Below the pieces are notes generated by a model, which worked only from the letters and a program-made list of their open reading frames with translations, was not told the origin of the DNA and searched no databases. Of a stretch of DNA of 64,000 nucleotides, positions 25,673 through 61,134 are shown one piece after another; position 1 is the first letter of the stretch, and the number at the start of each line of letters is the position of its first letter. Made by a program: the position numbers and the translations under genes. This DNA comes from Hoplostethus atlanticus (lineage: Eukaryota > Chordata > Actinopteri > Trachichthyiformes > Trachichthyidae): contig JAXDDX010000051.1 of the NCBI GenBank assembly GCA_034670405.1, positions 2,083,501 through 2,147,500 of the forward strand, read 5' to 3'.

Positions 25673-25799
25673 CTAGTCCATCCTCTCCACCTTGCCCAGG
25701 ACCTTGGCCTCATACATGGGCAGCACGGTGGCATCCTCCCACACCTCCTCAAACACGGCACCACACTCAAACTCATCGCTGGCCTTCTTGAAGTAGTAC
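25673..25799 (-). CDS. axin2: axin2 coding exon 10: end of DIX domain and stop codon
   Basis: The last coding exon follows a 2.8-kb intron. It encodes [20 protein letters not shown] then [21 protein letters not shown] and stops at TAG (25675-25673). The C-terminal KVERMD corresponds to the Axin C-terminal KVE-containing tail (a SUMO-acceptor motif in Axin1). The acceptor is CCGCCTCAG. Confidence 0.96.
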
Positions 25800-28700
25800 C
25801 TGAGGCGGAAACACAGGAGAGAGGTCCGTGATTAGAAAATGTTGAGTGTAGGTGTAAGCAGCAACAAAAAAATGAACACAACAAAAAGCTGATAGAATGG
25901 CAGCAGGATTTTATCATCTTTGAACCGTTTTGAGGCACCTACACACTACTTCCATCTACACGCTCGCGCACAACTCCCTACAGTCCGAATCAAACACAAA
26001 CACACTCTGAGAGCCAGAAATGGATCCTGTTCAAAACAACTTAGTCATAGCCTTCAATGCTATCCCTCCACACTTCAAAGGCAAAACTTGACTCCACATC
26101 ACACCACTGCAAAACAAGGCTGAACCCTCCCTTTAAACACTCCCTGTGATAATTCAAGCTGCTAGAAACTGCCTGTGTGTGTGTGTGTGTGTCTCCTCAT
26201 CCACTTGTTCATCTTGACTGCTGGCCATTCTACAGATGCCTATCTGTCCTGGAAGGTCTTATTAAAGTTGAAGGGTTAATTAGAGGCTGTCTTAAGGCCC
26301 CCACCCCTCCCTCTCTTTAGCAGTGGGCTCTCCCCTGGCCCTCTCTGAGTCTCCATGGCTTCTAATTGGGCTAGCTGTCAAATGAAGGGCCTTTCTGTCA
26401 CACAGGTTGACATTTCAGGTGCCTGAGAGTCTGCCTGTCACTGCATGAGCACAATCCAGTTTACGCACATACACACACACACATATGCCTGCACGCACAC
26501 TCTCATCTCTTTCTCTCACACACACACACACACACTGATCATCACACAGTCAAGGACACACACACACACACACTTCGGGCAGCTTTCCGATCACCAACTG
26601 AGAACAGAGGAAAAGAGGGAGCAGGAAAGGAAGAAAGAAGGGGGAAACGGAGTGGAGGCCTTCTGTGGCTGGGTGAGTGGGTGTGATATATTGGATGCAG
26701 GCCGAGCCCGAGGGGCTATACCCCGGGAGGGGGGGAGGGCAGCGCCCACTCTCCTAGACAGTCTCCTAGAGGTCACGGGTCACCTAACTAGCCCGTTCTT
26801 CTTCTCTCAAACAGAGATAAGTCCCAGGGTTAGGTTGGTCTGTGGTTGACTGTGAAGTCTCCCGGAGCTCCTAATGATTTCTCCTCTCCACTTTAAACCC
26901 AGCAAAAGACCAGCAGGAGGGGATTTAATGATAAGCTTTGTAATGGAAAAATGCCTCATTTTGCCTGTGTGCCTGCGCCGAGGAATTCAACAAAAAAAAA
27001 AGAAAGAAGCTTTTCTGTGTTTTATGAGCAATCGCTGAGCTTGGAGTCGTACAAACAACACATGTAAGGGGGTGGGGTGGTAAAAAAAAACAAAAACATT
27101 TTTTCTGTGTTGATTGTAATTAAACGCAAGTGAATTGTTTGGCCAAGTTTAGAGAATGTTGAGGGTGCATTACACAGCTGCACGACTCTCTTTTGAGTAT
27201 GCAGTTGTAAAATATTCCATGGGATGAGGCGGAGGGGTGACAGCTTTGTTTTATGAAGGTGCATTTCAACAAGTGAAAACAATGTCACGCATAGAGGCCA
27301 CTTCTCTATTGTCTACGCTTTGGTGGACAGGACTGAGCCATCGCCATCTTCACAAATACATACAAAATAAAAGCATGAGCCTCCTTGATATGATTGCGAC
27401 TGATTTTATTTTATTTTTTTCAGAAGAAAATGCTACATCCTCACTGACAAATAGTTCAAAGGCATCATTTTGTTTCAGCGAGCGAGACAGAGAGACAGAG
27501 ACGGAGAATGAGAGAGAGAGAGAGAGAGGAGTCTTTCCATTGGAACATGTTTTATGTGGCAGGATTTTTCTCTCTTTGCAACATCTGGCACCAATATCGT
27601 CTGGCAGAGCCGCGCCGTACTGTTCTCCGCTGTACCGCTGCCATGTCCAAATTAACCAACTCCACACATTCTGCTGCCATTAAAGCCAGACGCTTCAAAT
27701 TGCCACCCAACACCCCCCCCTTTCTTTTTTTGCTTGCTGAAGACTTATGGGATAGCGGGGGTGCAATGACTTGTTTGCAGGCCTTCTTCTCTCTCTTGCC
27801 TAACAAGCAGATGTGGTTATAACCTAATGTTGATGTCATGGGCATACCAACTTTATGTCTTTACAATGGACCACAACCTACGCAGTACTGCAAAGGTTAC
27901 TTAAAGCAGTAAGCCTGGACTTAGCGGAAAGCCTCCTGGTGTGAGACTTCTTTCAACTGATTTGCCATTATAGCTCAAATTCACAAAGGAATCCCAGCGT
28001 TGTTTTGGAATGTCCCCTTACAACATCTGACACTTTAACAGTAGGTATTTCTGCTGTATTAAATACTAGTGGATCGCTATCAGTGACTAACAGAAGGTGT
28101 TTGCGGTTCTGATTCAGATGCCTGATGCAACAGTGTGGAGGAGGAATTTGAAGGTCTTGCAATCTTTGTGCACAAAATAAAAGGGCCCAAGCTTCAAAGC
28201 CATATTTATTAAGGCTGCCTTACCATGGAAATGAGTACCAGATGTGAGAAAAAAATTGCTCCACTAAAGAAAAAAATCCCCCCCTCTCTTCCTCTCTGTA
28301 AGCTCTGAGCACAGATCGGCCCACAGTTCCTCTTCCATCTTAAGACTATTGGGCTCCAATGTTTCTCATTCACAATCACACTCAGCAGATGAACAGACCA
28401 CACACATATATAGATATGCAATAACAAATACACATACATCCATAACTAACAAAATCACTATAGTATTAACCCTGATCTGGTCTGATATCTCCTTCAACTG
28501 AATACACCTCTTTGTAAGTGTGCATCGCTGTGGTGTGATCTATCTGTGTGTGTGTTAGTGGTGCATATTCACCTGTAGTTGCCTTTCTTGCTGAGCTGTT
28601 CTTTGAAGTGTCCCAGGGTGAGGCAGTGGGCCTTCATCATGCTGCGGTAAGGAATCTCCTCACCACAGAAGAAGTAGGTGACCACCAGCTCCTTGGACCT

Positions 28701-29211: not shown

Positions 29212-32200
29212 TGTGTATTTGGAAAGAAAGCAAGACAGCAAGTTAGAAAAGATTAAATGACAGATGCAGAGAAACCCCAGCATAGGAGGACAGGGAGAGA
29301 TAGAAGTGAGGGGAGGGATACGTACTCGTCTGTTTGAAGTCCAGGGCTGGCTAGAGGGCTGCCTCCAGTGGGGAAGGCAGCTGCAGGATGACTCCTGTCT
29401 CTCTGAAGGCTGCTGGCTGCTGCTGAATGCCTGTCAAAATCATGGAGAGATCAGTGACTAATCAGTACTCACCTCAATACAAAGAGAAAACACTGGACCC
29501 TATTTGCAAGGTACTTTTATGTGATCATTCACAAGTCAAACTTTTATGTGGAAGATATTTATTGAGGAATACTCATGATTGGGAGTGTGGGTTTTGTGTG
29601 TATACATGATTGTGTATCTGTGTGTGTGTGTGTGTTGTTCCGTACCTCTGTTTAGGGGGCTTGGAGACCTCCTCTAGTCTGCGGCAGGCCTCCTCCAGCT
29701 GTGCCAAGGTGTTGGGTGGGGGCAGGGGTGGCATGGCCGGGTCCTGGATGAAAGGGTGGCCGGGGTGGTGGGCGCGGAGGTGACCCCCGCTGCCAATGCC
29801 GCCTCCACCCCAGGGAGAGTGGGTCCGGCCGGGCGGGGTTTTGGAGGACGAATCCAAGGGGTGGGACTTCTTTAGGCCTTGAGTGCTGTTGGGGTGAAAA
29901 GGTCAATATATAATATGGGCAATGAAATCAATGCAATGGTGCCCTAATGGTGTCCAATATGTGGTTCAGGAGCCACGGCTGAGGTTTAGTGATTCTCGAG
30001 GGCCACCCACCTGTGGGGCTTGTGTTTGCCCTGCCTCTCACTCTCTAGGATCCACTGCCAAACATTCTGAGAGCGGTCGGTGGCGTCCAAGGGCAGGTGT
30101 GGTGGAGACTTGCCCTCCTCAATGGCCTTGACCGGACATCTGGACAAAGTGCTGCAGCGACTAAATAAAGCAAGAGAGGCAAGTTAGGACCAGAGACAGA
30201 GCAGCTTTACCAATGGCTGTTTCTCAGGTACTAGTTGCTACAGTATTATGCTGTTTGACAACTCAGCACAGCTCAGAAGTTCCACTCACGCAGGGGTAAA
30301 GTCGGAGTAATTGGCGCCCCCTGGAGGGCAGAGGCACTGCACGCGCTGAGCCGCCTCTGCTTCGATCTGCTCCTTAGTCTTGGGCCCAGCGTGATGATGG
30401 TGGATGTAGTGGTGGTGGATGTGCTTGGTGGACTGCCTGCCTGCGACGAGGACCTTGGAGGCCCCAGGATAGGCACCGAGGAAGGGACCATGACCAGAGG
30501 GCACCAAGGTGCCAGTTTGATCTGGGGAGCGTGAGCGCGGTGAGTGCCTAACCACGCCTGGCGACTGGCAGCCAGGCGTCTTCAGGACGCGGGATAGGTG
30601 CTCGTCTAGTATGGCCTGGGGGTCTTCCTCACATTGGCTGCCGGAGGAGAGCAGAGGGTGGTGGAGGGAGGCGCCGCAAGCAAGTTCGCCACTTTCCTCC
30701 CTTTCCTCCTCCTGGACACGCAAGCGCACACAAAGCAAAGAAAAAAGACAACTGATGAAATTACCAGACAACAGTCACATGTGGGAAACACTCCTTCAAC
30801 CAGCAAGCAGAGGAGTTTATGTCTCATCTAACACCAACTTATATCTGTCGTCTTCTGAAGTCAGTGAGAGCAAACGCTTGGATAACTTGATTTGAGTTTC
30901 CCTTTTGCCGCACTGTTATCCTCGCTAACAGGCTTTGGGTGCGCTTCATCTATAATGCAGAGTGTGCCTGTGCCTCACAAAGAGACTGGCACTTCACATA
31001 CTCAGCAAACGTGCCACTGGAGAGTAGCTAAGTGCTAACTATTTGAAGGAACTTCAAGTGTGTCAAGAAACATAAGTTTGAAACTTCCTCCAGATGAAAT
31101 AGTGGAGGACAGAGAGGAAGAGGGAAGAAGTAGCTAAACTGAGGCAGACTTCCAATTCCCTTAGTCTTTTCCCTGTTCTTCAGCATGCTAAAGCCTGCAT
31201 AAAGGATTCGTATTGCACAAACAGTTCGCCCAAGCTAACTTTTCACTTGGATACGAGTGTCCCATACCTCCTGGATCTGCTGCAGCCTCTCCTCCAGTGA
31301 GCTCATGGTGTCCTGCTCTCTCTTCAGCTTCTCCAACCGGGTGATGAGCTGGGCAGCGAAGGCCGAGGGCTCAACGGGGGTCATCTCCTTAGGCAGCCTG
31401 TGTGTCCTCTGTAGGGCACGCAACAAAGGAGGAAGGACACTTTAGAGTGTGTGTGTGACCACTTAGTGTTTATGACAGATGCAGTATGGTGCATTAATCC
31501 ACCGCCCTTGCCCTAATCCTCGCTTGTTCCAAAAAGCCTGCTACTATTCCAAAAGGCCTAATCCAGATGCCCTTGCCCTCGAGCTAACCTGAACCTTCTC
31601 AGTCCCCTGTCCCTCCCCAGATCTTCTCATGCCCAGTGCCCTTGGCAGTACCAGGCAAGCGGGAAAGAAGGGGGTAGTTGTGGTGGGGTAGCAGTTGGTC
31701 TCGCTCGGAGGGGAGGCCCCCTGCCTGCACCCTCTGTAGCCCGACCAAGCCATCAGCTAGGCAGCCTCTGAAGTCAACACACTTCAAAGGGCCCTTGTCA
31801 AACATCAAACGCACACTAGGGGTGGGAGGGACATGCGGCTTTAAATCTCCGAATAAAAGCCAGATATCGACAGAGAGGAGAGAAAGAGTGAGGAGAAGAG
31901 AGGGGAAGGGGAAAAAAAGGAAAGGGGGGACAAAATTAAAAGCAAGGAAAAAAGAGGAAGAGGATTGAGATGTGCATTTGTGGAATGGTGGTGGTGGCAG
32001 AGAGAGAGAGATAGAGAGGGGCTGGGAAGGAGGGAAAGAGGGAGGGAGAGGAGGATAGCAGAGTCAAATACCAGGGAGATCTGAGGGGAAGTAGTAATTT
32101 ATTTCCCGACTGCACGCGGGGCAGCTCAGAGGTACTCTAGTCACATTATCCTCCCTTTTCTTTAACTATATGCACAGGCTTCTCTCTCTCTCTTTCTCCC

Positions 32201-35200
32201 TCTCTTACTTTTTTTGTTATTTGGCACACTGGCTTTCTTGATTTTGACTCTTTTTTTGTTGTTCCTCTCATCTCTTTGTAGAGACGATGAAGGGAAGGAG
32301 AAGAAAGGCAAGCGGGGCTGCTGGCAAAGGAGCGCCAGCCCTGCACGGGGCCCCCGCTGCCTGGGGCTGGTGCATCATGGGAGACAGAGCCATCTCCAAA
32401 TCAGGAGGGAGACATTAAAGGAGTGCAAGTGGGAAAGGAAGAGAGAAAGAGACAGAGAGAGAGATAGAGATTGAGAGAGAAAAGAGAGAAAAGGAAGAAC
32501 AGACAACACACTCAAACTCATGCGCAATCGCACACGCACACACACAAACACGCCTGTGTTTGGGAAGAAAACACCAAAGATTTTCATATTTCTTTTCTTG
32601 CCTCAAAGAGACCCCCCCCCCAAAACAAAAAACACCCATCTGTGTCATTCTCTTCTAACCTGGCCCACAACAACTTGGGTCTACAAAACCTTGGATCCAA
32701 TGAACACATGACCCCAAACTGCTCTATGGAGTGGAGGGTTGTAACGGGACATGGTGCTGACTCATCTGCAACAACTGAAGTAGTAGTTTCAGTAGTCGGC
32801 TTGCTAACTTAAAGGGTAACTGAGGTGTTGCTCTCTCATCTTGACCTCAATGTCACCACCACTATCACCATGACAATCATTACTGACTTCATATCAAACA
32901 TAAAACATATGAAGCGACACTGCTACATATCATACTACAGTTATTGACATGTGACACAAAGAAGGCAACACAAGTTTATATTTGACAGCCCTACAGAAGA
33001 TACTGGGATGTGGGGGGTTTGGGGGGGGTGCTTGAGGTGGTGGAAGAAAAAGTGAAGTGGAATGCAAATCCTGCCTTTCATTTACCCCGGCTTTTATATG
33101 AAAACGAACAGGGGAATAGAATATAGTATTCTGTCACAACATGAGCTCTGAAAAAAATAAAATAAAACACAACTCCTCGAGGGAATCAGGACCCAGTTGT
33201 CTGTCAGCGTGCAAAAGTTTGAGTTTAACAGATAACAAAAAAAAGGAGACGTTGAGACAGGAAGTAGAACTTACAGGAAAGTGGGGTAGCGAAACCTGGC
33301 CATTGATCTTGACACTGCGATGCATCTCTCGCTGGAGCTTCTTCTTGGTGCCCAGCTTGTATGGAGGGATTCCATCTCTGTAAAAACAAAAAAGATATAC
33401 ACTTTAAAACTAAGTAAAAGTCAGTCACAGCTATTTAAAATGACCTCATCCACACTTAACTAGCAATACCTAATAGCTTCCTATCCAATAAATGTTATTT
33501 TTGTTCACCTACTGCTACTCATCATACAGGTCACAATACTCCCACACCAACACTGTCGGTGCTGTAGCACCAGTTGCCAATCTTTGTGTAGACAGAACCC
33601 TTGAAAGGCAGTCCACTGAAGTGACCGACACAAAACCACCCAGTAACCACCCACCAGGCACATTACAGCTGAATCAAAGGGCTGGGGAGCCCTTGAAGCC
33701 AAGGCAACAAAAACACACATAACAAAACACACCAGGACAATAGGAGAGATATGCTAAACATCCCAGTGTGGGCTTCAAAAGAAGAGCCCCACTGATAAGT
33801 TAACATCAGTCCTTGTCAACACAGAACGTGGCTGTTTTTAAAAGCATAAGAGTTCGCGCTAACTCCAGTAGCTAGCTGTAGTTTGACACTAAAACTGGCT
33901 AAAGCTGGCTAGGTAACGCTGCTCAAGCTTTGTAGCTCTGACATCATAATAATATTAGGAAAAAATGTAGCTAGGAATACTAGTCTCTGGACAATTAAAC
34001 ATTTATTGGGGGAATCTTATTCTCCTCTTTTCATTCTGTGTCTGCTAGCTTTTCCAGTCAGCTGCCATTTAAGCGGGGCCAATTATCTTGGCCGTTTTGG
34101 CTGCTCAGAAGTGTCCGACCTAGCCCAAACGCTAGTTCTTCCGCTGCCTCTTTGAAATCTCACACTCATGCACATATGCACCCGCTGCCATCTTCGTTTG
34201 GCAAGCGCTCTGCTGTGAGCCTCTGATCTCAGCAACATCAAAAGGCTGGTTTGTAAGATAAGGTAATGTTTGAAGTTGGTGCAGCAGCATTCCCCAGCGT
34301 CCAAGTAAATCCATAAATAAGATATAAGCAAAAAGAGAAAAAAAAAATCCCCCCAACCCTTCTTCCACCCCCCTCCCTTTCCCCCAAATCCTCCTCTTCT
34401 TCTTCTTTATCTGGGAAATTAGATTCAAATTTGCAGTGTGCCTTTTAACCACTATAAAAGGACACACTAATCAAATTGTTCCCTCGAATGAGCGAGGAAG
34501 AAGCTGTTTTTTTTTATTAAAAGTGGTTAGGGGTGAGGAGAGACGGGAGCAGGGGACGGAGGATGGGAGAACCGCCTGTGTCAAAGACCTTGGTGAGGAC
34601 TACTGCGAGAATATGACTTTGAGACATGGTGTTGTTTTAATGATGACAATGTGATATCACTCTAGTCAGTCTTTGTTCAAACGTTTTTTCCATCCTTTGC
34701 ACATCTAGTCAAGGTCTGCAAATCAAATTTTAGTGTTTGAGTGACATCATCAAGCCGTGCCAAGCTGCCGATATCAATCTCGTTGCAGCAAGCGTCTAAT
34801 AAGTGGGGGAGCGCTACCAAAATCGATGCTCCACGAACCCTTGAGACTACAAGCTGCCGTCCCTCGAGGCACAGGAAGAAACACAGAAAACTCTTCAAAA
34901 GTCAAACTCAACAGCCCAGAGGAACTTGTGTACTAACCAGAACCCCAAATTTAGCAGCAAACCATCACTGGCAACCAAATCTTGCCGTCTCCCGCTCGCT
35001 TACTGTGTTTTTATCAATCCAAACTGTCCCTACCCTGGCAAACCATGCGAAGGCTGGACTCTTTGTGCAGCTCGGGGGAAGAGAAAACAGCCGTGGACTC
35101 TTTCATGGTTTCATAGGCCCTTACTTTATGGGGATCTCCTATTCAGTTGTGCAAGTCATTTTCAAAGCAGCCAGCCACCCTCTTATCCCCCTAAGCTCCC

Positions 35201-38200
35201 CTTGCCTAACAATAGGCTGAAAGCGATTCAGTTAAGCCCTTTATACTCCGTGCACTTTATTTTCTCACTCCCTTGCACTCCGAGCCTCATCACTACCGCT
35301 ACTGGCTCCGGTGCAGGAGAGAAGCTGTGGAGGGTTGGGTTGGGTGGGGGGGTGATTTTTTTTGGGGGGTGCCCTGGTCTGGCCAGTGGGAGTTCCTCAT
35401 GCCTTGTCCCGAGGTCCAGAAATGAGTAACCCCTGTGAAAGCCTCGCAGACACATGATCTCAGCACGCCGCAGAGGCCAGTGGCAGGAAACCGACCCACC
35501 ATGTGAGTAAGCCTCCTTTCATTTGGTGCCAACATCTTTCAATGAGTTTGTCTTGAGGCCCGAATGGCTATTTCCCTCCCCCACCCCACCCCCCTCTCCT
35601 CCAGCTCTTCAAAGAGAAAAAGCGATTAGATAATATGAAGAAAAAAAAAAAAAAAACAAGTCTGTTGTGGCAGAAGGGTGGGTGGGATGGATACATTTCG
35701 ACTTTGAGGAAAATGAGGCAACGCCCCCACCCACATCAAGACGCTCTCGTTTTTTTTTTCTTCCTCTCTCCAGCCTGTAACGCATCAGAATAAACTTCAA
35801 AAGGTCTTTAGACATAATGACTTTCCCAGTGTTATCTCTCTGGAGGCCATAGCAACAACTACACATTAATAGAATTACCTGAAGTCAATCATGGAGGATA
35901 ATTAAAATACATTACAGACCTTTTTTTTTGCGACAAGAAAAGTCTTTTGAACTACTATTTTCCTTCTCACAACTCAGTCTTTTTCCCGGTGTTGACTGAA
36001 CTCTGATCCCAACAAGTTTAGACACTATGGAACTTCTCAAAACTCGCAGAGCTTTGGACAGTGTCAGCTGAATGGAAATGAGCCTTTTGAAGTCGGTATA
36101 TCATCTCTGGAGCAGGCCCGAGTCGAAATGAAACTGACCCCCCCCGCTTTTTGATTTGAAGAAGAAGTAAAAACCAGAGGGAGCACTTACACGCTACTGT
36201 CCGTCATGGACATGGAATCGTCCGTTGTGGCATCGCTGGAGATCTCGCTGTCGTTGGCACTGGTGGCGGGGGCAAAGATGTAGCCCGAGTTGACAAAGTA
36301 GGGGCTGGCGGGGTCTCCTCGCCGGTGGGACCTGTAGAAGACACGGGGGGAGATTGGCGGCTTTACATGCGGTGTCTTTCTAAGTCGTGGTGTGCAGCGA
36401 GTGGGTGTGATAGATTTGGGTTTATTTGTTGTGCGGCTCCTTTGCGGGTGTTCACTTGATCAGAATTGAAAAGTAAACGTGACAGCTGTGAGTGTGTTTT
36501 GTTGGAAGTTCTCTACAGATTACGGGTGAGCAGAGTCACTTTCGCGAGACTTTGGGGCCTAAGGAATGTGACAACGGTATCAGAGCTGGGGCTGTGGGTT
36601 CTCTTTTTTCTTTTCTTTCTTTCTCTCGCTCTCTCTTTCATGTCCCTTCCCCCAATATACGGGGATTGTGGGGGGGGGGGGGGGTGGAGGGGTGAAGGGG
36701 GGGGTGAGTGAAGTGAAGTGAGCAGCCTAGCTGTATGTGAATGAACAACAGCACTTCACTCTTCTCTCTCTAATGCTATCTCTCCACCCTTTTATTTGGG
36801 CAAGGCCCCTAGTCCCGCACTTTTCACTCTCTGAAACTCCACTCTCTCTTTTCTTGGAGTGGGCCAGTCTGGGGCCCCTCCTTTACCCCCCCCCCCCTCA
36901 CCCTCCAACAACCCCCCTTTCTTTCTCAAGTCTCTCTCTTTCTACTCTCTCCTGCTGTGTTGCATTCCTGTTCCAGTAGTGAAGGGGGTGGACAAGGAAG
37001 CGGGAGGGAAGAAGGGGAGGGGGGAACTTGAGCTTTAGACAGGGAGAGAGAGAGAGAGAGAGAGAGAGGGAAAGGGGAAAGGAGGGCCCCTTTCTTTATG
37101 AGAATGCCTACTGCCGGGAGTGCTGAGAGGAGAACCCCAGCATGACTAAAGCCGTAGGCCCCAAGCTCAAACCTGACCTTTGGAAGGTCCACGCAAAGAG
37201 TCAGGTATTTAGCACAGCTGGGCTCTCTGCACCCCCTGCTCTCGTTCTCCATCTCCTTTCTTTCTTTCATGATCCCCCCCTCCCTTCCTGTCTTTCCCCC
37301 TTCCCCTCCTCTTGTCTTTCTCTGTCTCCCTCCAAAGCATGCTTAGTCTCTGTCAGACAGATTTTTCAGAAAGGAGAGATAAAAGCACTGGATAGAAAGG
37401 AAAGAGGAAGAAAAACACTGAAACACACACATACACACACACACACACACAATCTAAGGCGAAGTGGGAATGGTGGTTGAAGCTGCTGAACTGAGCTAAG
37501 AATGTGTTGTTGTTGTGTTTTTCTATCAGTTTGGAGGAAAGTGCTGGAGGTTTTTAAAAGGAGGGGAAAAAAAGAATTTGTGCAGTGGCAAAATTAGTTC
37601 CACATGTTTGAGATGGAAATTGGTTGACCTAAAGAGATGGCGAGGGCCAGGGGGAAAAGGGGAGAGAGAGGGTGATGGAAGGGAGAAAGAGGGGACTCTC
37701 TCTCTCTCTCCCGCTTTTCCTTTAGTAAAAAAACAAGAATGTTGGGGATCACACAATGAAACTGAGGAGATGCCCTCATGTCAACAATCCCAGGTGCTAA
37801 CTCAACATGGCCACTTTCAAACATCCTGGAAACAAGTGACCATGTTCTGATGTTATCTGAAATCTGCTCGCATGAAGGTTAAAACTGTCGAACTTGACTT
37901 AGTCCATACACCAATAGATGTATTCAATTATTTTCTTGTGTACACTGGTAAGAAAAAGTGACACGCTGGACACAATTTTAAATCCCTAATCTCACAAAAA
38001 AGTTTTGGTAACTGGATAGGATGTGTGGATTATCTGTAAATTGCACTTTTCCTACCAACACCAAAGTAACAAGACATTGTCAAACCTCTCAGTAATAATT
38101 GTGTCCAGATGTGAGAAAAATACTCAAGCCTTTGAACGTGCTCTTTGATGCACGCTCATGCATAAAATCCAGTTTTTGAAAACGTTCCTGGCTTGAAGAG

Positions 38201-39757
38201 ATTTCAGCTGTTGGACAACATGTGGGACGAGCTCTTAAGAAAAAATGCTTTCCAGAAACACTTCCACTTTCATCTCTGACCAAGAGACCAATATCTCTGC
38301 TTGGCATAAGGCTGAGTGCGTGAGTTCCTTCAACTGTGTATCTGTATTAACATTTCTTTCTGTTGGGATATTTTGTGTTAGGCTACAATAAATATGTGGC
38401 TTAGTACGTAGAATAAGAGAGAAATAGTGCATAACTTCACTGTAGCATCATATAGTTTCATGTAGCTGCAGCAGTCGTGAGGCTTGGTGTCTGAATTCAT
38501 GCCTGAACCGGAGGAAGGGTTTCAAAGCACAGGAAACTTGAGCAAGCCAGCAGAGGGCTGCCTGCGAGACACCATTTACTTAAAAGGAAGGACCAGATCC
38601 ATTGATGTTTTGTACCCACCCCGCCCCTCCACCCTTCCACCCCCCTTTGACTAACTGCAAGGCAGAGGGCACAAATATACAGGCATGTTCCTCCTAGACC
38701 CTTTGATCAAGTGCCTTTATCTCTCACAGGCATTTGTGAAATAACTGCCAATTCCCATTTATGTGGTTTATGCCTTGTAGTTGGACTAACAAATGACTGG
38801 CGATGAGGAGAGTTACATGCTCAAAAAAAAACACGAAATTCAACACACATTAAAGTGTAATGCAACAAAAGCTGCCCCGCGGTGTGACACGGGGAGTGTT
38901 TAGCCCAGGTAGGCGCAGCTCTTACCTGCATCCATTCTCCAGCACTTCAGCTGCTGTCCGGATGGTAGCAGTAGCCCTCAGGGTTTTCACAGACAGCCCA
39001 ACCACAGACGCTAACGTTTTTGCCTTCAGGTCATTACAACTCCACTCCTCCTCCTCCATGAGAGGTGGAAGGTATCCGCACATCAACTTGAGGCTGCCGA
39101 GACCGCTGTGGTTCACATAAGCCGCGTTCTCGCAACCGGTGCGCACGTATTCGAGGTATATGTCAGAAGGTTAAAAACATCTGGTACGCGTTCTCTTCCA
39201 TGGTGGACTGGATTTCCGTCTGTGCCTGGTCAAACATCGCAGAGTCAATTTGCTGTTTCTTAATACTATCCCTTATAAAGGTTTTGGTGGCCGGGTTTCA
39301 TTTGCTTGGCGACAATGCTGTTGTTCTCAATGTACCGCTTGAAAATAACTTTGGCAACTCGCAGCGTTTTGGTATCCTTTAAGTCCATTTGCCTGAAGCC
39401 GTTGCAGGCGAACCAAAAGTCCAAAGTGTCCACGCATTTCTCCCGCTCCAGAAAGGTCCTGAAGAGGTGAGCGCCGTCTTGGTCGCCCAGGAGAAAATGC
39501 AGAGACTTGGTCCACCGGACTAGGGGCGAGTCCGGGGACGCGCTGCCCTCTGGCTCCCCGAGTCCATCCTCGTTCCTCCTCGGCGTGGAGCCGGGAGGCG
39601 CGGCGGCGGGGATTTCTTTAACCTTGCTCTGGCCTCTCATTTTGGCAGATTTGCTGGGGTTGTAGCATGACGCCTCTCCCTCCTCCCCCGGTACCGGAGG
39701 ACGAGGAGCATCTTCTCGGAAGCTACTGCTGATGTGCTCCGTAAGCGCCCTACTCAT
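25673..39757 (-). CDS. axin2: Axin2 scaffold protein, whole coding span (10 coding exons)
   Basis: Axin2 is a cytoplasmic scaffold of the beta-catenin destruction complex; it brings APC, GSK3, CK1 and beta-catenin together and is itself induced by Wnt signalling. The coding join, in transcript order, is 39757-38926, 36331-36191, 33377-33275, 31408-31268, 30711-30290, 30160-30011, 29885-29646, 29430-29326, 28698-28573, 25799-25673. Every intron is GT-AG and every junction keeps phase. With two apparent one-base insertions in the first exon set aside, the total is 2385 nt, or 794 residues plus stop, slightly shorter than the mammalian protein. Domain order: tankyrase-binding segments (about 12-28 and 59-71), RGS (about 81-205), GSK3-binding helix (about 370-385), beta-catenin-binding segment (about 430-455), His-rich stretch, DIX (about 712-794). 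The N-terminus [19 protein letters not shown] marks it as Axin2 rather than Axin1. Introns range from 125 bp to about 2.8 kb. Confidence 0.96.
25800..28572 (-). other. axin2: axin2 last intron, with possible conserved noncoding block
   Basis: A 2.8-kb intron just before the final exon. Parts (26265-26440 and 26860-26990) are unique, GC-balanced and contain TAATTAG, TAATTGGG, TAATGATAAG and CTTTGTAATGG type motifs, resembling enhancer sequence; this is inference. The rest includes CA repeats (26470-26575), a GA run at 27508-27529 and no coding signal. Confidence 0.5.
28573..28698 (-). CDS. axin2: axin2 coding exon 9: first half of the DIX domain
   Basis: This 126-nt exon encodes [20 protein letters not shown] then [21 protein letters not shown], the start of the DIX domain. 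DIX domains self-associate head to tail and pair with the Dishevelled DIX domain. The acceptor is ATTGCCAG and the donor TACAG|GTGAAT. Confidence 0.96.
29163..29216. repeat. Compound (GT)n(GA)n microsatellite in axin2 intron
   Basis: About nine GT units pass directly into about fourteen GA units, then GT again, within the 626-bp intron between coding exons 8 and 9. Confidence 0.95.
29326..29430 (-). CDS. axin2: axin2 coding exon 8: variable linker before DIX
   Basis: This 105-nt exon lies between TTTTGACAG and GTACGT, in and out in phase 2. It encodes [20 protein letters not shown] then [15 protein letters not shown]. It is weakly conserved; QRDRSH matches QRDRNH of human AXIN2. The exon length is divisible by three, so skipping it would keep the frame. 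Its identity rests on phase, position and that short match. Confidence 0.85.
29646..29885 (-). CDS. axin2: axin2 coding exon 7
   Basis: This 240-nt exon encodes a Gly/His/Pro-rich linker ([20 protein letters not shown]) and then the conserved [34 protein letters not shown] block of Axin2. The acceptor is CCCCAACAG and the donor AG|GTACGG; entry and exit are in phase 2. Confidence 0.94.
30011..30160 (-). CDS. axin2: axin2 coding exon 6
   Basis: This 150-nt exon runs from acceptor TTTATTTAG to donor GTGGGT, in and out in phase 2. It encodes [40 protein letters not shown] and ERQGKHKPH. The segment DRSQ.VWQW.LESERQ is strongly conserved in Axin2. The preceding intron is only 129 bp and the following one 125 bp, typical of compact fish genes. 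Confidence 0.93.
30290..30711 (-). CDS. axin2: axin2 coding exon 5: beta-catenin-binding segment, SP cluster, His-rich stretch
   Basis: This is the largest internal exon (422 nt). After an acidic start ([10 protein letters not shown]) comes the beta-catenin-binding helix [20 protein letters not shown], then [20 protein letters not shown], a cluster of Ser-Pro sites of the kind phosphorylated in Axin proteins. A His-rich stretch follows ([20 protein letters not shown]), then [19 protein letters not shown]. The donor is CTGC|GTGAGT with exit phase 2. Compared with the human protein the middle is diverged, but motif order is the same. Confidence 0.95.
31268..31408 (-). CDS. axin2: axin2 coding exon 4: GSK3-binding helix
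   Basis: This 141-nt, 47-codon exon in phase 0 lies between CCCTACAG and GTATGG. It encodes [20 protein letters not shown] then [20 protein letters not shown] and RLQQIQE. The amphipathic helix [18 protein letters not shown] corresponds to the GSK3-interacting helix of Axin proteins (known from Axin1, VEPQKFAEELIHRLE); the hydrophobic face is kept. Confidence 0.95.
31409..33274 (-). other. axin2: axin2 intron (coding exons 3-4)
   Basis: A 1.9-kb intron containing an unusually purine-rich stretch on the plus strand at about 31868-32070 and 32425-32500 (GA-rich), plus short CA repeats near 32530. No other feature is seen. Confidence 0.8.
33275..33377 (-). CDS. axin2: axin2 coding exon 3: basic linker
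   Basis: This 103-nt exon sits between a TTTTTACAG acceptor and a GTAAGT donor and ends in phase 0. It encodes [20 protein letters not shown] then [14 protein letters not shown]. The residues match the Axin family segment [31 protein letters not shown]. Both splice sites and phase agree with neighbouring exons. Confidence 0.95.
33378..36190 (-). other. axin2: axin2 intron (coding exons 2-3)
   Basis: A 2.8-kb intron. It is mostly unique sequence. The open frames of up to 167 codons at 34741-35429 have no recognisable homology, and overlap each other in different frames. I see no transposon. Confidence 0.8.
36191..36331 (-). CDS. axin2: axin2 coding exon 2: linker after RGS
   Basis: This 141-nt exon runs from acceptor CTACAG to donor GTAAGT, entering and leaving in phase 2. 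It encodes [19 protein letters not shown] followed by [19 protein letters not shown] and SMSMTDSSV. The Ser/Thr/Asp-rich motif [25 protein letters not shown] is a vertebrate Axin hallmark just after the RGS domain. Confidence 0.95.
36332..38925 (-). other. axin2: axin2 intron (coding exons 1-2)
   Basis: A 2.6-kb intron with donor GTAAGAG and acceptor CTTCTACAG. It contains long polypurine/polypyrimidine runs, a G13 run near 36670, GA and CA microsatellites (37045-37068, 37420-37452) and no recognisable coding or transposon sequence. Confidence 0.8.
38926..39757 (-). CDS. axin2: axin2 coding exon 1: tankyrase-binding N-terminus and RGS domain, with two frame breaks
   Basis: The start ATG at 39757-39755 opens [20 protein letters not shown]. 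It is chosen because this is where Axin2 homology begins; an in-frame ATG at 39826 upstream adds only non-homologous residues. Two tankyrase-binding segments follow ([10 protein letters not shown] at 19-28; [12 protein letters not shown] at 60-71). The RGS domain, which binds APC, starts near [19 protein letters not shown] and includes [20 protein letters not shown]. The open frame breaks after residue 155 (KP) by one extra G at 39291/39292. Coding then continues in the next frame ([17 protein letters not shown]) until one extra T at 39167/39168, after which [10 protein letters not shown] and onward read in the third frame. The exon ends in TGCAG before GTAAGAG. Literal translation stops at residue 163. 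Confidence 0.93.
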
Positions 39758-41366: not shown

Positions 41367-41825
41367 ATCCATGTACACGAGTATCCTCCCTTATTATAAC
41401 CCTGAAAGTAAAGTACTCCAACAGGCTATGCCAACAATCGTTGTTCTCCGTCCTAATGCTTATCACATAGGACAATTTTAATACAACCATGAAAAAAAGC
41501 AGAGCCGTTTCCCCAGGTAGTGTTTCAAAAAGTCATGGCAAGGCTGTAGATCTCCTCCGGGCTGTTTCTAAACCAACTGGGCTGAAGGTTTAACTGTGGA
41601 CTTCAAAGTGAAGAACCGCTGGCCTGGTCCCGGAAGATAGATAACAAAAACAACGACTCATCTTTGCAATAACAAAAAAAGATAGAAGCAACATAAAAAC
41701 GTTATCACATTCCCCGGCTCTCGACTCGTCAGCCACGCAATCTATAGGTCTAAATGTTTATAAATGTTTAATAAACTTTTGTAACATGAAAAAGTTTTTA
41801 CTCGGGTGTGAGGACCTTATCAAAG
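39891..41825 (-). promoter_or_regulatory. axin2: Cluster of TCF/LEF motifs in axin2 5' region
   Basis: Six WWCAAAG motifs (CTTTGWW on the gene strand) occur at 39891-39897, 39914-39920, 41294-41300, 41315-41321, 41602-41608 and 41819-41825. All point the same way, and I saw none in the opposite orientation in this interval. Mammalian Axin2 is a direct Wnt/beta-catenin target with several TCF sites spread over its promoter and first intron. Chance would give roughly one such 7-mer per 2 kb counting both strands, so six in under 2 kb is an excess. Two more (42607-42613 and, reversed, 42636-42642) lie further upstream. Confidence 0.55.
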
Positions 41826-44370
41826 ACATACAATCTAGAGCCAATTCCCCGAGGCTTTGGAGCGTCAGAAGTAAGTGATCTACCGCCCCAATAGCATTAT
41901 TCTTACGAGCCTTCTGTTACTACATAAAGTTTTAACAGGGACACAAAGGAGCTACTTTAGTTGCCTGTGCAAGCTTCGTCAAATGACAGCAGCAAGAAAT
42001 AACACACATTTACTAAATTCAACTGCATCTGTGGTACTCAATAGTGACTTTATCGCACTTAATGGGATCTCCCATGGTATCACTACGGTATTCCTATATT
42101 ATTCCTACATGGCCTACAGTGTGTCTGTAGTTTATGGTGGTCTAATCGCGTATTTTTGTCTTGTGTATGATCATTATGACATTCCTGTAATATCGCCACT
42201 TCTAGTTTTGCAGTAATATGCATATACTATACTTCTACCATTTATTATAGTATTACTAGTTCTGTTGGTAAGGACTGTGAAAGTCAAGAATTTAATATAA
42301 TTTAAAATAATTGCCACAATGATTAAAAAGGTATTCTAGGTGTAGCCCTGATTGAATAATCCTATAGAGAGTAAATGTCAAATAATTTATATATTAGCCA
42401 CACAGTTTTAGCCACAAAGACCTCAACGTAACACACATGCCAGCTCCACGTACAAGCAAAATGGCATAGCATGACATTTTGATTGAAATTGGACAGAGAG
42501 CAAAGGCAAGAACTGTTCTCTAGTCTTTTAATTCACATGACTTCCCTAATGTCATTGTGACAGAATCTTTAAGAGTGGGTTAGACAGTGATCCAATCCCA
42601 TGGTACTTCAAAGGCTATATTGTCCCTTTGATGTTGCAAATCAACTTTAAAAGAGAAATATAATTATATAAGTCAGATGATTCAAATTCACAAAACTCTC
42701 ATGATGACAAGACAAGGGGACTAATGAAATCCAACTATTCTGAGGTCTCCAAGTGGTGTTAGTTAGATTATGTTGAGCTATATGTAAAGAAAGAAGCGTG
42801 CTGTACAGATGTTCCCATGTGGATTTGTAGTCGTGTCAGCATCCAATACAGTGTTGTCCAAATATGTACTTAATGTCCAATTTTCAAGCACGTGAAGTGG
42901 GAGTAGATGTAATCTCATCCAGTATGGTTTAGCACTGGATGTGGTCACTATTGAATGCTGAGTAAGATCATCGTTGATAAGGAGTTTAGTGACAACAGAG
43001 CCTTATCACTATCATTTTCAATTTAGGTGCTCAATACATCCCCACTGCAACATAGCGCCTCATTGGAACAGCTATTAGTTGCCACAAGTTTCCACATAGT
43101 ACCTGAAGACATGGGACTTATTTTCACGTACTCCAATTTTGTACCACAATATGCTCTATGGAAAGCCAGTTCAGAGACAAAATGCATTCATCAAAAAAAA
43201 ATCGCGTTTTCCCGGTACAGCATAGGAGTCCGGTTGATTACATTGACTTCCTGCCAACCACTTCCTGGATAAGTGCTATGAGCTCGTCTGACAATTGTGT
43301 CCAGCTTATTTCAAACCTAATCTTTTAAGAATTTTTCTCTGCAAGGTGTTATCACAAAGCCGTAGGATAACAGACACATAGAATGATCTCTCTCTCTCTT
43401 GCTTTCTTTCTGTCTCTCTCACTCTGTGTGTGTGTGTGTGTGTGTGCGTGTGTGCGTGTGACAGTGTGTGAATATGTAGAGGTCATTCATAGCCACTGTT
43501 TATATGGGAGAGCTCTGTAAAATAAACATTGCTGCCACAAATCCAAACAACCGAGGACTCAAAATGCACAATAGCTCCCAACACTTCAGAATGGGAAGTT
43601 CCTGCTGTCTATGAGATGGAACACAAAATCACCAAATGGGTCAGTGTCACTGGCACTGTGCAGTTAAGGGGCACTTAACTGATCAGCGAGCCTTAACTTA
43701 AGACACGGAATATGTAGCCGTATTGTTATCTGTGCACTAACTTCTTTAAAGTCAGTCTTGAAAGGAGAATTGAGATATAGAGGCGTTTTTAAATGTCATT
43801 TTTGAAGTGGAGGACAATCTTAAAACTGGGATATTTCACATTCAGGATAAGATGTTAACTTCAATAAAATAAAATTAGGCTGCACATATCACTGCAAAAA
43901 AAAAAGCTAAATGAAAAAAAAAATGTCCAGAGATTGCAGTTTCATTTTTTCATTGATATGGAGGTTTTGCTATAGGACTAATGTTCATTCTAAGCCTGTT
44001 TTTGATGACATGTGAAGTTCAGCCTCTTTAAGAATTCATGATTTGTTTGTTTTTAATCAATTTCTTCAACCAAAACTTCTTAATCGAGAGCTTTGGAGAC
44101 ATAATGATGAACAAGTCACAGCCAAAATACAGCATGCTATATATTTTAAATTCATTCAGGAAATCTCTTGGGATGCTAAACCCATGTGACCACACCTGTT
44201 GACCCTTGAATTCCCACTCTTGTGTTTAGCAGTGACAAAGGAAAGAGGGTGCTGTAAAGTAGCTATGAGAAGCCCTTTTTGATGTTGACCCTACCCTGAC
44301 CCCCTTGTGGGGGCCCTAACCATTTCACAGGAAGATCCAAATGCTTTAAAAGCACAATACAGGATGAGAG
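41826..44370. other. axin2 upstream flank, no gene seen
   Basis: AT-rich unique sequence with a GT microsatellite at 43425-43460 and two more TCF-like motifs at 42607-42642. No coding sequence recognised. Confidence 0.5.
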
Positions 44371-45070
44371 CGCCACCACCGTCTTGCTATTAAGCCCCAA
44401 TAAAATGGGGTGACCTGGAGGCTAATTGAGGGCTCGTGCTTGGGAAGAAATTAAATGCATCTGCTGTATCAGGACAGACCGGAGATGGAGCTGCTCTTTA
44501 ATTAGACCCTGCATTAAAACAACACAGAGAAAGTATACATTTCACTGCTCTCGGTGTGTCAGAGGAAGATAACATAAAGTAAGATTCTCTATGTCTTTGA
44601 TGATGCGGCAGAAGTTGCATCAATCAAGTAGTAGGCCGATGTCCTTTCTTTTTGGGGGATTTGCATCATATTGCAGCCCACAGTATGTTTTCACACTGTC
44701 AACACTAAATTCTATATGGCCCATTTTATTATCCTTGCCTCTTCTCAAATCCTACACTTGTGCTAAAATAGCACAGAAAAACAGAGGAGAGGGTGGATAA
44801 TTGCAAATAACCCAATATTTGGGAGTTCAAAGGCTGTGGTGGGTTTGAGTGATAATTTTGGCTGAAGCATCACCATAAACACTAATAAAATTAAGTGCGT
44901 CGGAGGGGAGAGGGGGCGTGGCCAGGCGTCCCTTTGAACAGACCCTGTGATCAGTTCCCCCTCTCAATTAGCGTATTGTCCACTTCTCCTTTCAGCTGGG
45001 AGGGAGGGGGCAGTCTCCCCCCTAGCTTCCCTTTGAAGTGATTATCCCTTTATCTCAAGCCCGAGCGAGG
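44371..45070. promoter_or_regulatory. Possible conserved noncoding block upstream of axin2
   Basis: Repeat-poor sequence with GGAGGCTAATTGAGGGCTCG, CTTTAATTAGACCCTGCATT and CTCAATTAGCGTATTG words and TTTGAAGTGATTATCCC; no open frame of note. It looks like an enhancer block by composition only. Confidence 0.35.
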
Positions 45071-46420
45071 AATATCTTGGGGGACAATGGCAAATTAAAG
45101 CCCATATGGAGAGAAGCGTGAATGTCTGTTTGTAGGCTCAGAAAGAAATAGAAAAACAGGAATGATAGAGAAAGAAATAGAGTAGAGAGAGAGAGAGAGG
45201 GAAAGAGGGGGCAAATAGCATCATTCTGTTTGCATGAGCTGAGGGGTGTGGGGTAGATGTCAACACCCATCCAAAAAAAGTAATTTAAGGCTTGTGCCTG
45301 AGTTGACACTTGTAGCAGAGTGACTTTAACTTCTGAAGAAGAGCTAAAGGAAAGGGGGAGAGGGAGGGGGTGGGGGGGGGGTCTGTCACGATGGATGGAG
45401 AGAGACGGAGAAGGAGGAATGGAGAGATAGAAGGATGAGCATGAAGAAGAGAGAGGAGTGCAGTTGTCAGCAGAATCAGATGGCAGTCAGGCAGACAAGC
45501 TTGAAGAAGATACAATTAAACTGTGGAGTTAAGACGGGCTTTGAAGTCGGACATGGTGCATAACACCCTTAAAGTTTGAGAAGCCAGCCATTCATCCGCT
45601 TGTTATGGCTTGTTAAGACCATGCCATTTAAAAGGCCCAATATGAGAAAATAAACTTTAATTTCAACTTCAGAAAAAAGTCTAAATAAGTCAAGAGTGGG
45701 TGACAGGCGGGTAAAAGTGGCAGCAAGGCTGAAAAAAAACCTGATGGTCATCTTTTAAAACTTGTCCTGAGTGCGGATTTGCTAAAGGAGGGGTGGGGGG
45801 GTGCAGGCGAGCACTGAAGATGAATAATTACTTTTTCTTCCCACTCTCTCCCTCTTTTTTTGTTATAATCCTGTTTTGCGGTGGCTTAAAAGTTTAATAA
45901 TGTATAGGAAACAATGCCTGTGATGCTTGGCCTAATCCGTTTTGGCCAGGGAAACCTACTGTGGTAACCAAAACCCTATCTGATGTGAGCAAACGTTTGC
46001 CAAGCCAGCCAGCACAGCCAGACAGGCAGACGGACAGAGTGCGTCCTGGACCGGGTCACAGGCATCTCTCTCTCTCTCTCTCTCTCTCGCTCTCTTTATA
46101 CATATATATCTATCAATATACAGCAGAAATATGGATCAACAACTTGTTCGATATGATATGAATTGACGAGGACAGACAGACACTACCTATGGTTGTCTAA
46201 TACTCTTTGCTTTGTGAGAAGCTACTAAATGTAGTGTAATTGACAGGAACAACAAACCTTTCACATGTTTTCCTTTATGATTGGTAATCTACACTGACAC
46301 TGCCCGTAGGCCTGTAGCCCTAAAGCGTTTCCCTAGGCTTTCAACAGGAAGGAAATTATGGCTGTGACCTACTGCATAACAGTGCTTGAATGCACCTAGT
46401 GCTTTTTGTATACACAAAGT
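45071..46420. other. Gene-free stretch
   Basis: GA-rich runs (45140-45210, 45335-45460) and a CT microsatellite at 46064-46096. No gene. Confidence 0.5.
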
Positions 46421-60272: not shown

Positions 60273-60634
60273 AGGCTACGTCCACATTAAGCCGGGTAAA
60301 TTTGGAAACGCATACTTATCTCTCCGTTTTGGCCTCCCGTCCACACTAGGGCGGCGTTTTTAACCTCCCAAAACGGAGCTTTTTGAAAACGCTCTCCTAA
60401 GTGGATAAGTTTGAAAACGCCGGCCCCCCGTTGTAGTGCGGGTAGCGAAAACGGAGACTTTCACTGACGTTACACTGATTGTCTGTCGCTTGATCCAGCT
60501 GTGAGTGAGCCAAGTGGTCTGCATATTCACATGGAAGGAGGTATGCGTTTTTGGTGTGGACGGCAAGCTTTTCAAAAACGCTAGACCCGAAAACGCTGTT
60601 TTCAAATTTACAAGGCTTAGTGTGGACGTACTCT
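60273..60634. mobile_element. Harbinger-like MITE, copy 2, inserted in the LINE
   Basis: About 362 bp, between the LINE words AGAGTACTTTTA and TTAAACAAAC. The left end is GGCTACGTCCACATTAAGCC and the inverted right end GAGTACGTCCACACTAAGCC; both are related to copy 1. TTA flanks each end. The interior is rich in GAAAACGC/GCGTTTT words, as in copy 1 (AAAACTCGAAAACG). No transposase. Confidence 0.75.
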
Positions 60635-60639
60635 TAAAC

Positions 60640-61134
60640 AAACGTATTCATTTTAAGTTCTCTAGGCAAGCAATAAACTGGTTTACATCATACCTGGAAG
60701 GCAGAGAGCAATGTGTTGGGATTGGTGCCATACGCTCTGCCCCCCTGAGATTCAGGACGGGCATTCCACAGGGCTCAATCTTGAGACCGTTGCTTTTTAG
60801 CTTGTACATAAATGATTTACTGGAAAGCTGTAGTGGTGCTCACAGCCAAATGTATGCGGATGATACTATTATAAATTTGGCTGCAAAAACTCCTCAGTTG
60901 GCAGCAGAGATCCTAACAAGTCAGCGGCTTAAAAATAACCATTTGACTTTGAATCTGAAAAAACTTTGTGTGCTTTTCTATAAGAAGAGTAAAAAGAAAC
61001 ATGTAATAAAGATTGACCAAGAGGAGATAGAGGAGGTACATTATTTTAAGTTTCTTGGTGTCATTTTGGACCCTCAACTACAATTTGATAAACATGTGAA
61101 AAAGCTAAGGAAGACACAGTTAAAACAAATCTAA
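60640..61134 (+). pseudogene. LINE reverse transcriptase fragment (catalytic YADD region)
   Basis: The longest remaining open piece of the LINE. The first about 44 codons of the open frame (60505-60637) come from the inserted MITE; the reverse transcriptase part starts at LNKRIHFKFSRQAINWF. It contains the GIPQGS motif (60760s), LLFSLYINDL, YADD and the thumb-proximal FKFLGVILD. The frame ends at 61134, earlier than the family normally does; downstream sequence still resembles the family after a frame change. Confidence 0.8.

Follow-up and report, generated by a model that had tools for sequence, protein, structure and literature searches.

The window, i.e., the whole 64,000-nt stretch of Hoplostethus atlanticus DNA analysed here, carries a gene taken here to be axin2, whose first coding exon cannot be read in a single frame. 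This locus raises the question of whether the gene is broken in the animal or only in its assembled sequence. All coordinates below are window positions unless a contig or locus label is given.

Two one-base insertions divide coding exon 1 into three frames

38926..39757 (-), axin2 coding exon 1 (832 nt), whose start codon lies at 39757 and which contains both one-base insertions
39266..39757 (-), frame A, 163 aa, opening at the start codon and closing at a premature stop
39291..39292 (-), first frame shift (+1)
39163..39297 (-), frame B
39167..39168 (-), second frame shift (+1)
38926..39170 (-), frame C, which covers what remains of the exon and joins exon 2 in phase

Exon 1 consists of three successive, overlapping frames, with the breaks at doubled bases (39291/39292 and 39167/39168). 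The tail of frame A ends at 39266, frame B runs from 39297 to MFLT at 39163, and frame C starts at SDIYLEY and continues to the splice donor. The exon was aligned, with frame shifts tolerated, to the protein of a second axin2 gene located on contig C109. The alignment reached residue 268 of that protein at 80% identity and contained two frame events, both one-base insertions, which agrees exactly with the positions at which the first-pass annotation had placed two extra bases. Once the shifts were allowed, this alignment revealed no stop codons in exon 1.

The tankyrase-binding region lies in frame A (PF16646, E 2.1e-30, residues 5-79), and the solved sequences nearest to that frame are the Axin RGS chains 1dk8 and 1emu. 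The RGS domain (PF00615, 117 positions) is present in exon 1, yet interrupted by both shifts: positions 1-63 fall in frame A and positions 71-109 in frame B, while frame C alone gave no match to Pfam. Read literally, the exon gives a product of 163 residues, as had been proposed; the accompanying suggestion that most of the RGS domain would be lost has to be corrected, as 63 of the 117 profile positions are kept and the loss amounts to roughly half. The literal product thus retains the tankyrase-binding region and approximately half of the RGS domain.

The remainder of the gene is intact

36191..36331 (-), axin2 exon 2, intact
33275..33377 (-), axin2 exon 3, intact
31268..31408 (-), axin2 exon 4, intact
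30290..30711 (-), axin2 exon 5, intact, containing the beta-catenin-binding motif (Pfam PF08833)
30011..30151 (-), axin2 exon 6, intact
29646..29885 (-), axin2 exon 7, intact
29326..29430 (-), axin2 exon 8, intact
28573..28698 (-), axin2 exon 9, intact, encoding the first half of the DIX domain
25673..25799 (-), axin2 exon 10, intact, encoding the second half of the DIX domain and the stop codon

The coding sequence is divided among ten exons and totals 2,378 nt. Each exon begins with the start codon or an AG acceptor and ends with a GT donor or the stop codon, and the exon phases are consistent when the two surplus bases of exon 1 are discounted; the earlier statement that the other nine exons and the splice sites are intact was therefore sound in every exon end and phase checked. 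Further lesions (stops, lost splice sites and deletions) were sought throughout the coding exons, and none was found. The tankyrase-binding, RGS, beta-catenin-binding and DIX regions (the last, PF00778, spread over exons 9 and 10) follow one another in the order usual for axin2, and in this the window copy resembles other axin2 genes.

A second axin2 gene is present in the assembly

A second axin2 locus, for which the first-pass annotation had recommended a search, was found on C109. Searching the assembly with the DNA of the exon returned four places: the window itself (100%), matches of 77% and 64%, and a 47-nt match of 87%. The 77% match, spanning 717 nt of exon 1, is the C109 gene, whose RGS exon reads without a break and which has counterparts for all ten exons. 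By pairwise identity only, the window copy is nearer to this gene than to a relative on C78 (64%, 419 nt), which is presumably axin1. The same DNA search of the assembly turned up neither an alternative haplotype contig nor another near-identical copy of the window exon.

Conservation between the two axin2 loci was also seen in apparently non-coding DNA. A non-coding element in intron 2 (34189-34333, -) is strongly conserved with C109 axin2 (29 of 31 residues, in an arbitrary frame), and two apparently non-coding stretches upstream of the gene (41738-41916 and 45029-45584) are common to both loci and are possibly enhancers retained since the duplication.

As the genome holds two axin2 loci, the window gene might be an extra, decaying copy, with the intact copy elsewhere, as had been suggested. 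That suggestion was weakened considerably: exon 1 of the C109 gene is only 77% identical in DNA, and the gene has counterparts of all ten exons. Two axin2 genes, axin2a and axin2b, are also described for medaka in PMC5087619, and an entry named 'axin2 (1 of 2)' for the same fish appears in PMC3206014. With two axin2 genes in medaka, two loci would be expected in such a teleost, and neither of the present pair looks like a recent spare. The likeness to the medaka pair, which is known here by description, is that of two axin2 loci per teleost genome, and the only difference noted in the window copy is the pair of frame breaks in exon 1. The depth of the divergence, which is as expected of the medaka pair, largely refutes an extra decaying copy, and next to no probability was assigned to it.

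Frame B has been conserved as coding sequence

Of the 42 codons between the two shifts that were compared with C109 axin2, 19 differ synonymously and 2 non-synonymously, 18 of the 22 base differences lie at third positions, and 40 of the 42 residues are identical. Judged by this comparison, frame B matches C109 axin2 more closely than chance would allow and was under purifying selection, and it was probably translated during most of the history that separates the two axin2 genes. If frame B was translated for so long, any real lesion should be young.

A recent, real loss would mean that one axin2 ohnologue took two frame-shifting insertions, either in the species or in the individual, and that the C109 copy carries the function. 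Such a loss could be tolerated because the genome has the C109 gene, whose RGS exon is uninterrupted, and both medaka paralogues were detected in the intestinal epithelium, according to PMC5087619, which makes redundancy plausible. No title on a lost axin2 in fish stood among the matches listed in the literature search. Against a recent loss, no additional lesion was seen in any of the ten coding exons. Deletions are expected to exceed insertions in decaying genes, and both axin2 breaks are insertions; breaks elsewhere in the assembly are also mostly insertional (see below). A recent loss is accordingly considered improbable.

Frame breaks are found in unrelated conserved genes of the assembly

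By eye, the 31 open reading frames of at least 120 aa in the window included no conserved gene beyond the axin2 exons and a retrotransposon fragment, and the check on local errors was therefore moved to genes elsewhere. The fragment, a 209-aa open frame at 60505-61134 (+), resembles, by its motif, part of a non-LTR retrotransposon reverse transcriptase.

The break rate was drawn from large protocadherin exons, found by their N-terminal domain (PF08266, 113 matches); as sampling was by the N-terminal domain, breaks further downstream would hardly influence which exons were sampled. All 20 matches outside contigs C150, C375 and C196 were included, together with 27 of the 93 matches on those three contigs, chosen as the best-scoring loci. 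One of the latter (L022, on C196, where there are two more matches) was counted as non-clustered, giving 21 non-clustered and 26 clustered loci. Coverage was limited to about the first 1.8 kb per exon in L022-L051, and L064, L065 and L069 aligned partially, probably owing to introns. A break was accepted only if two of three templates agreed. L037 was excluded as a template, as its own break produced false insertions in six loci. The first 1,410 nt of L028, L046 and L047 were trimmed because four events there, three deletions and one insertion, did not lie beyond the point at which the coding match begins, and L032 was dropped because it is the same gene as L054.

In total, 22 frame breaks (18 insertions and 4 deletions) were counted in 88,283 aligned nt of the 47 protocadherin loci, 15 of which had at least one break. 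Three of the insertions and a single deletion came from the 41,051 nt of the non-clustered loci, where 4 of 21 loci were affected, i.e., 0.097 breaks per kb (four events; 95% interval 0.027-0.249). The clustered loci, with 11 of 26 affected, had 15 insertions and three deletions over 47,232 nt, a rate of 0.38 per kb. Some of the clustered genes may be true pseudogenes; among the non-clustered ones, a pseudogene share of one fifth is unlikely. The excess of insertions (18 of 22) departs from an even split (p = 0.004). Events supported by a single template in L043, L056 and L063, all of them deletions, were left out of this count; when they were included, insertions made up 18 of 25 (p = 0.043). 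The breaks are clumped in places, with two about 160 nt apart in L025, four in L026 and three in L027. L026 and L027 are neighbours in the C150 protocadherin cluster and have one frame-breaking insertion in common, in the same context; gene conversion, a repeat of the same assembly error or a lesion truly shared by the two exons could account for it.

If the rate of the non-clustered loci is applied to coding sequences 2,378 nt long, about 21% would have at least one break and about 2.3% would have at least two; the 95% interval of the rate translates into 0.2% to 12% with at least two. Two random breaks in the axin2 coding sequence would fall within 127 nt of each other in about 1 case in 10. 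A fish genome usually has some twenty thousand genes, and, if the rate holds, double breaks like that of axin2 would be expected many times genome-wide.

A single consensus would conceal the second allele of a heterozygous animal, and the breaks might then belong to a null allele, heterozygous or confined to this individual, which the assembler took into the consensus, the other haplotype being intact. The assembly, without a near-identical second copy of the exon, is consistent with this. Given the background of breaks, two insertions on one rare allele would be less likely than two errors in the consensus, and a null allele was judged very improbable.

Discussion

The frame breaks in axin2 exon 1 very probably reflect errors left in the assembly consensus, each a single inserted base. 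The nine intact exons, the splice sites and the stop codon, together with the selection on frame B, count for this reading, as do the comparable breaks seen in conserved loci unrelated to axin2 in this assembly. The excess of insertions over deletions (18 against 4) is the reverse of what decay would usually produce and favours error, and both axin2 breaks are insertions. The first-pass annotation had put assembly errors forward as its leading explanation, which gains support from the mostly insertional breaks that the large, conserved protocadherin exons show.

The assembly comprises 632.8 Mb in 1,161 contigs, one of them 17.3 Mb long, which suggests that it is based on long reads. Incomplete polishing of a long-read assembly could have left the two extra bases in exon 1, and these would then be missing from the animal's actual DNA. 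Residual indel errors in long-read assemblies can mimic gene frame shifts, although no paper on this topic was among the matches listed. The present case resembles such errors in that one-base insertions occur in well-conserved coding sequence, are clumped in places and are found in unrelated genes too; no difference was noted, the technology of the Hoplostethus atlanticus assembly being deduced from its contigs.

Several observations speak against error. The non-clustered rate derives from four events, the single-template events left out of the count are all deletions, which weakens the insertion excess, and two breaks would lie this close together only rarely at random. The clustered loci may include true pseudogenes, to judge by the break common to L026 and L027, and the C109 gene would let a true loss be tolerated. 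The error rate is also not uniformly high, since stops were present in only 5 of the 149 rows of a table of 7tm_1 receptors, albeit one that favours intact genes (147 of 1,111 candidates were scored). Because of this bias no break rate was taken from that table; a BTB_2 table (71 rows) was not used either. The G+C content near both breaks is ordinary (0.46-0.51) and offers no obvious local reason for poor polishing; local G+C as its cause is thus unsupported.

The most likely conclusion is an ordinary one, i.e., an intact gene carrying assembly errors, and the locus would then be an ordinary and most likely functional teleost axin2 ohnologue. About one in five coding sequences of the length of axin2 may carry a spurious frame break in this assembly, an uncertain figure that derives from four events, and apparent gene losses in it need read support. 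There is only a slim chance, somewhat below that given to a recent loss by insertion as such, that one axin2 ohnologue has very recently lost its full-length product. If it has, the gene might now yield no more than a short protein that comprises the tankyrase-binding region and half an RGS domain; alternatively, a downstream start would yield an Axin2 lacking the RGS domain, which would keep the beta-catenin-binding motif and the DIX domain and would not bind APC through the RGS domain. A real lesion would represent a very young loss in a conserved Wnt-feedback gene pair, and would provide a useful test of ohnologue redundancy.
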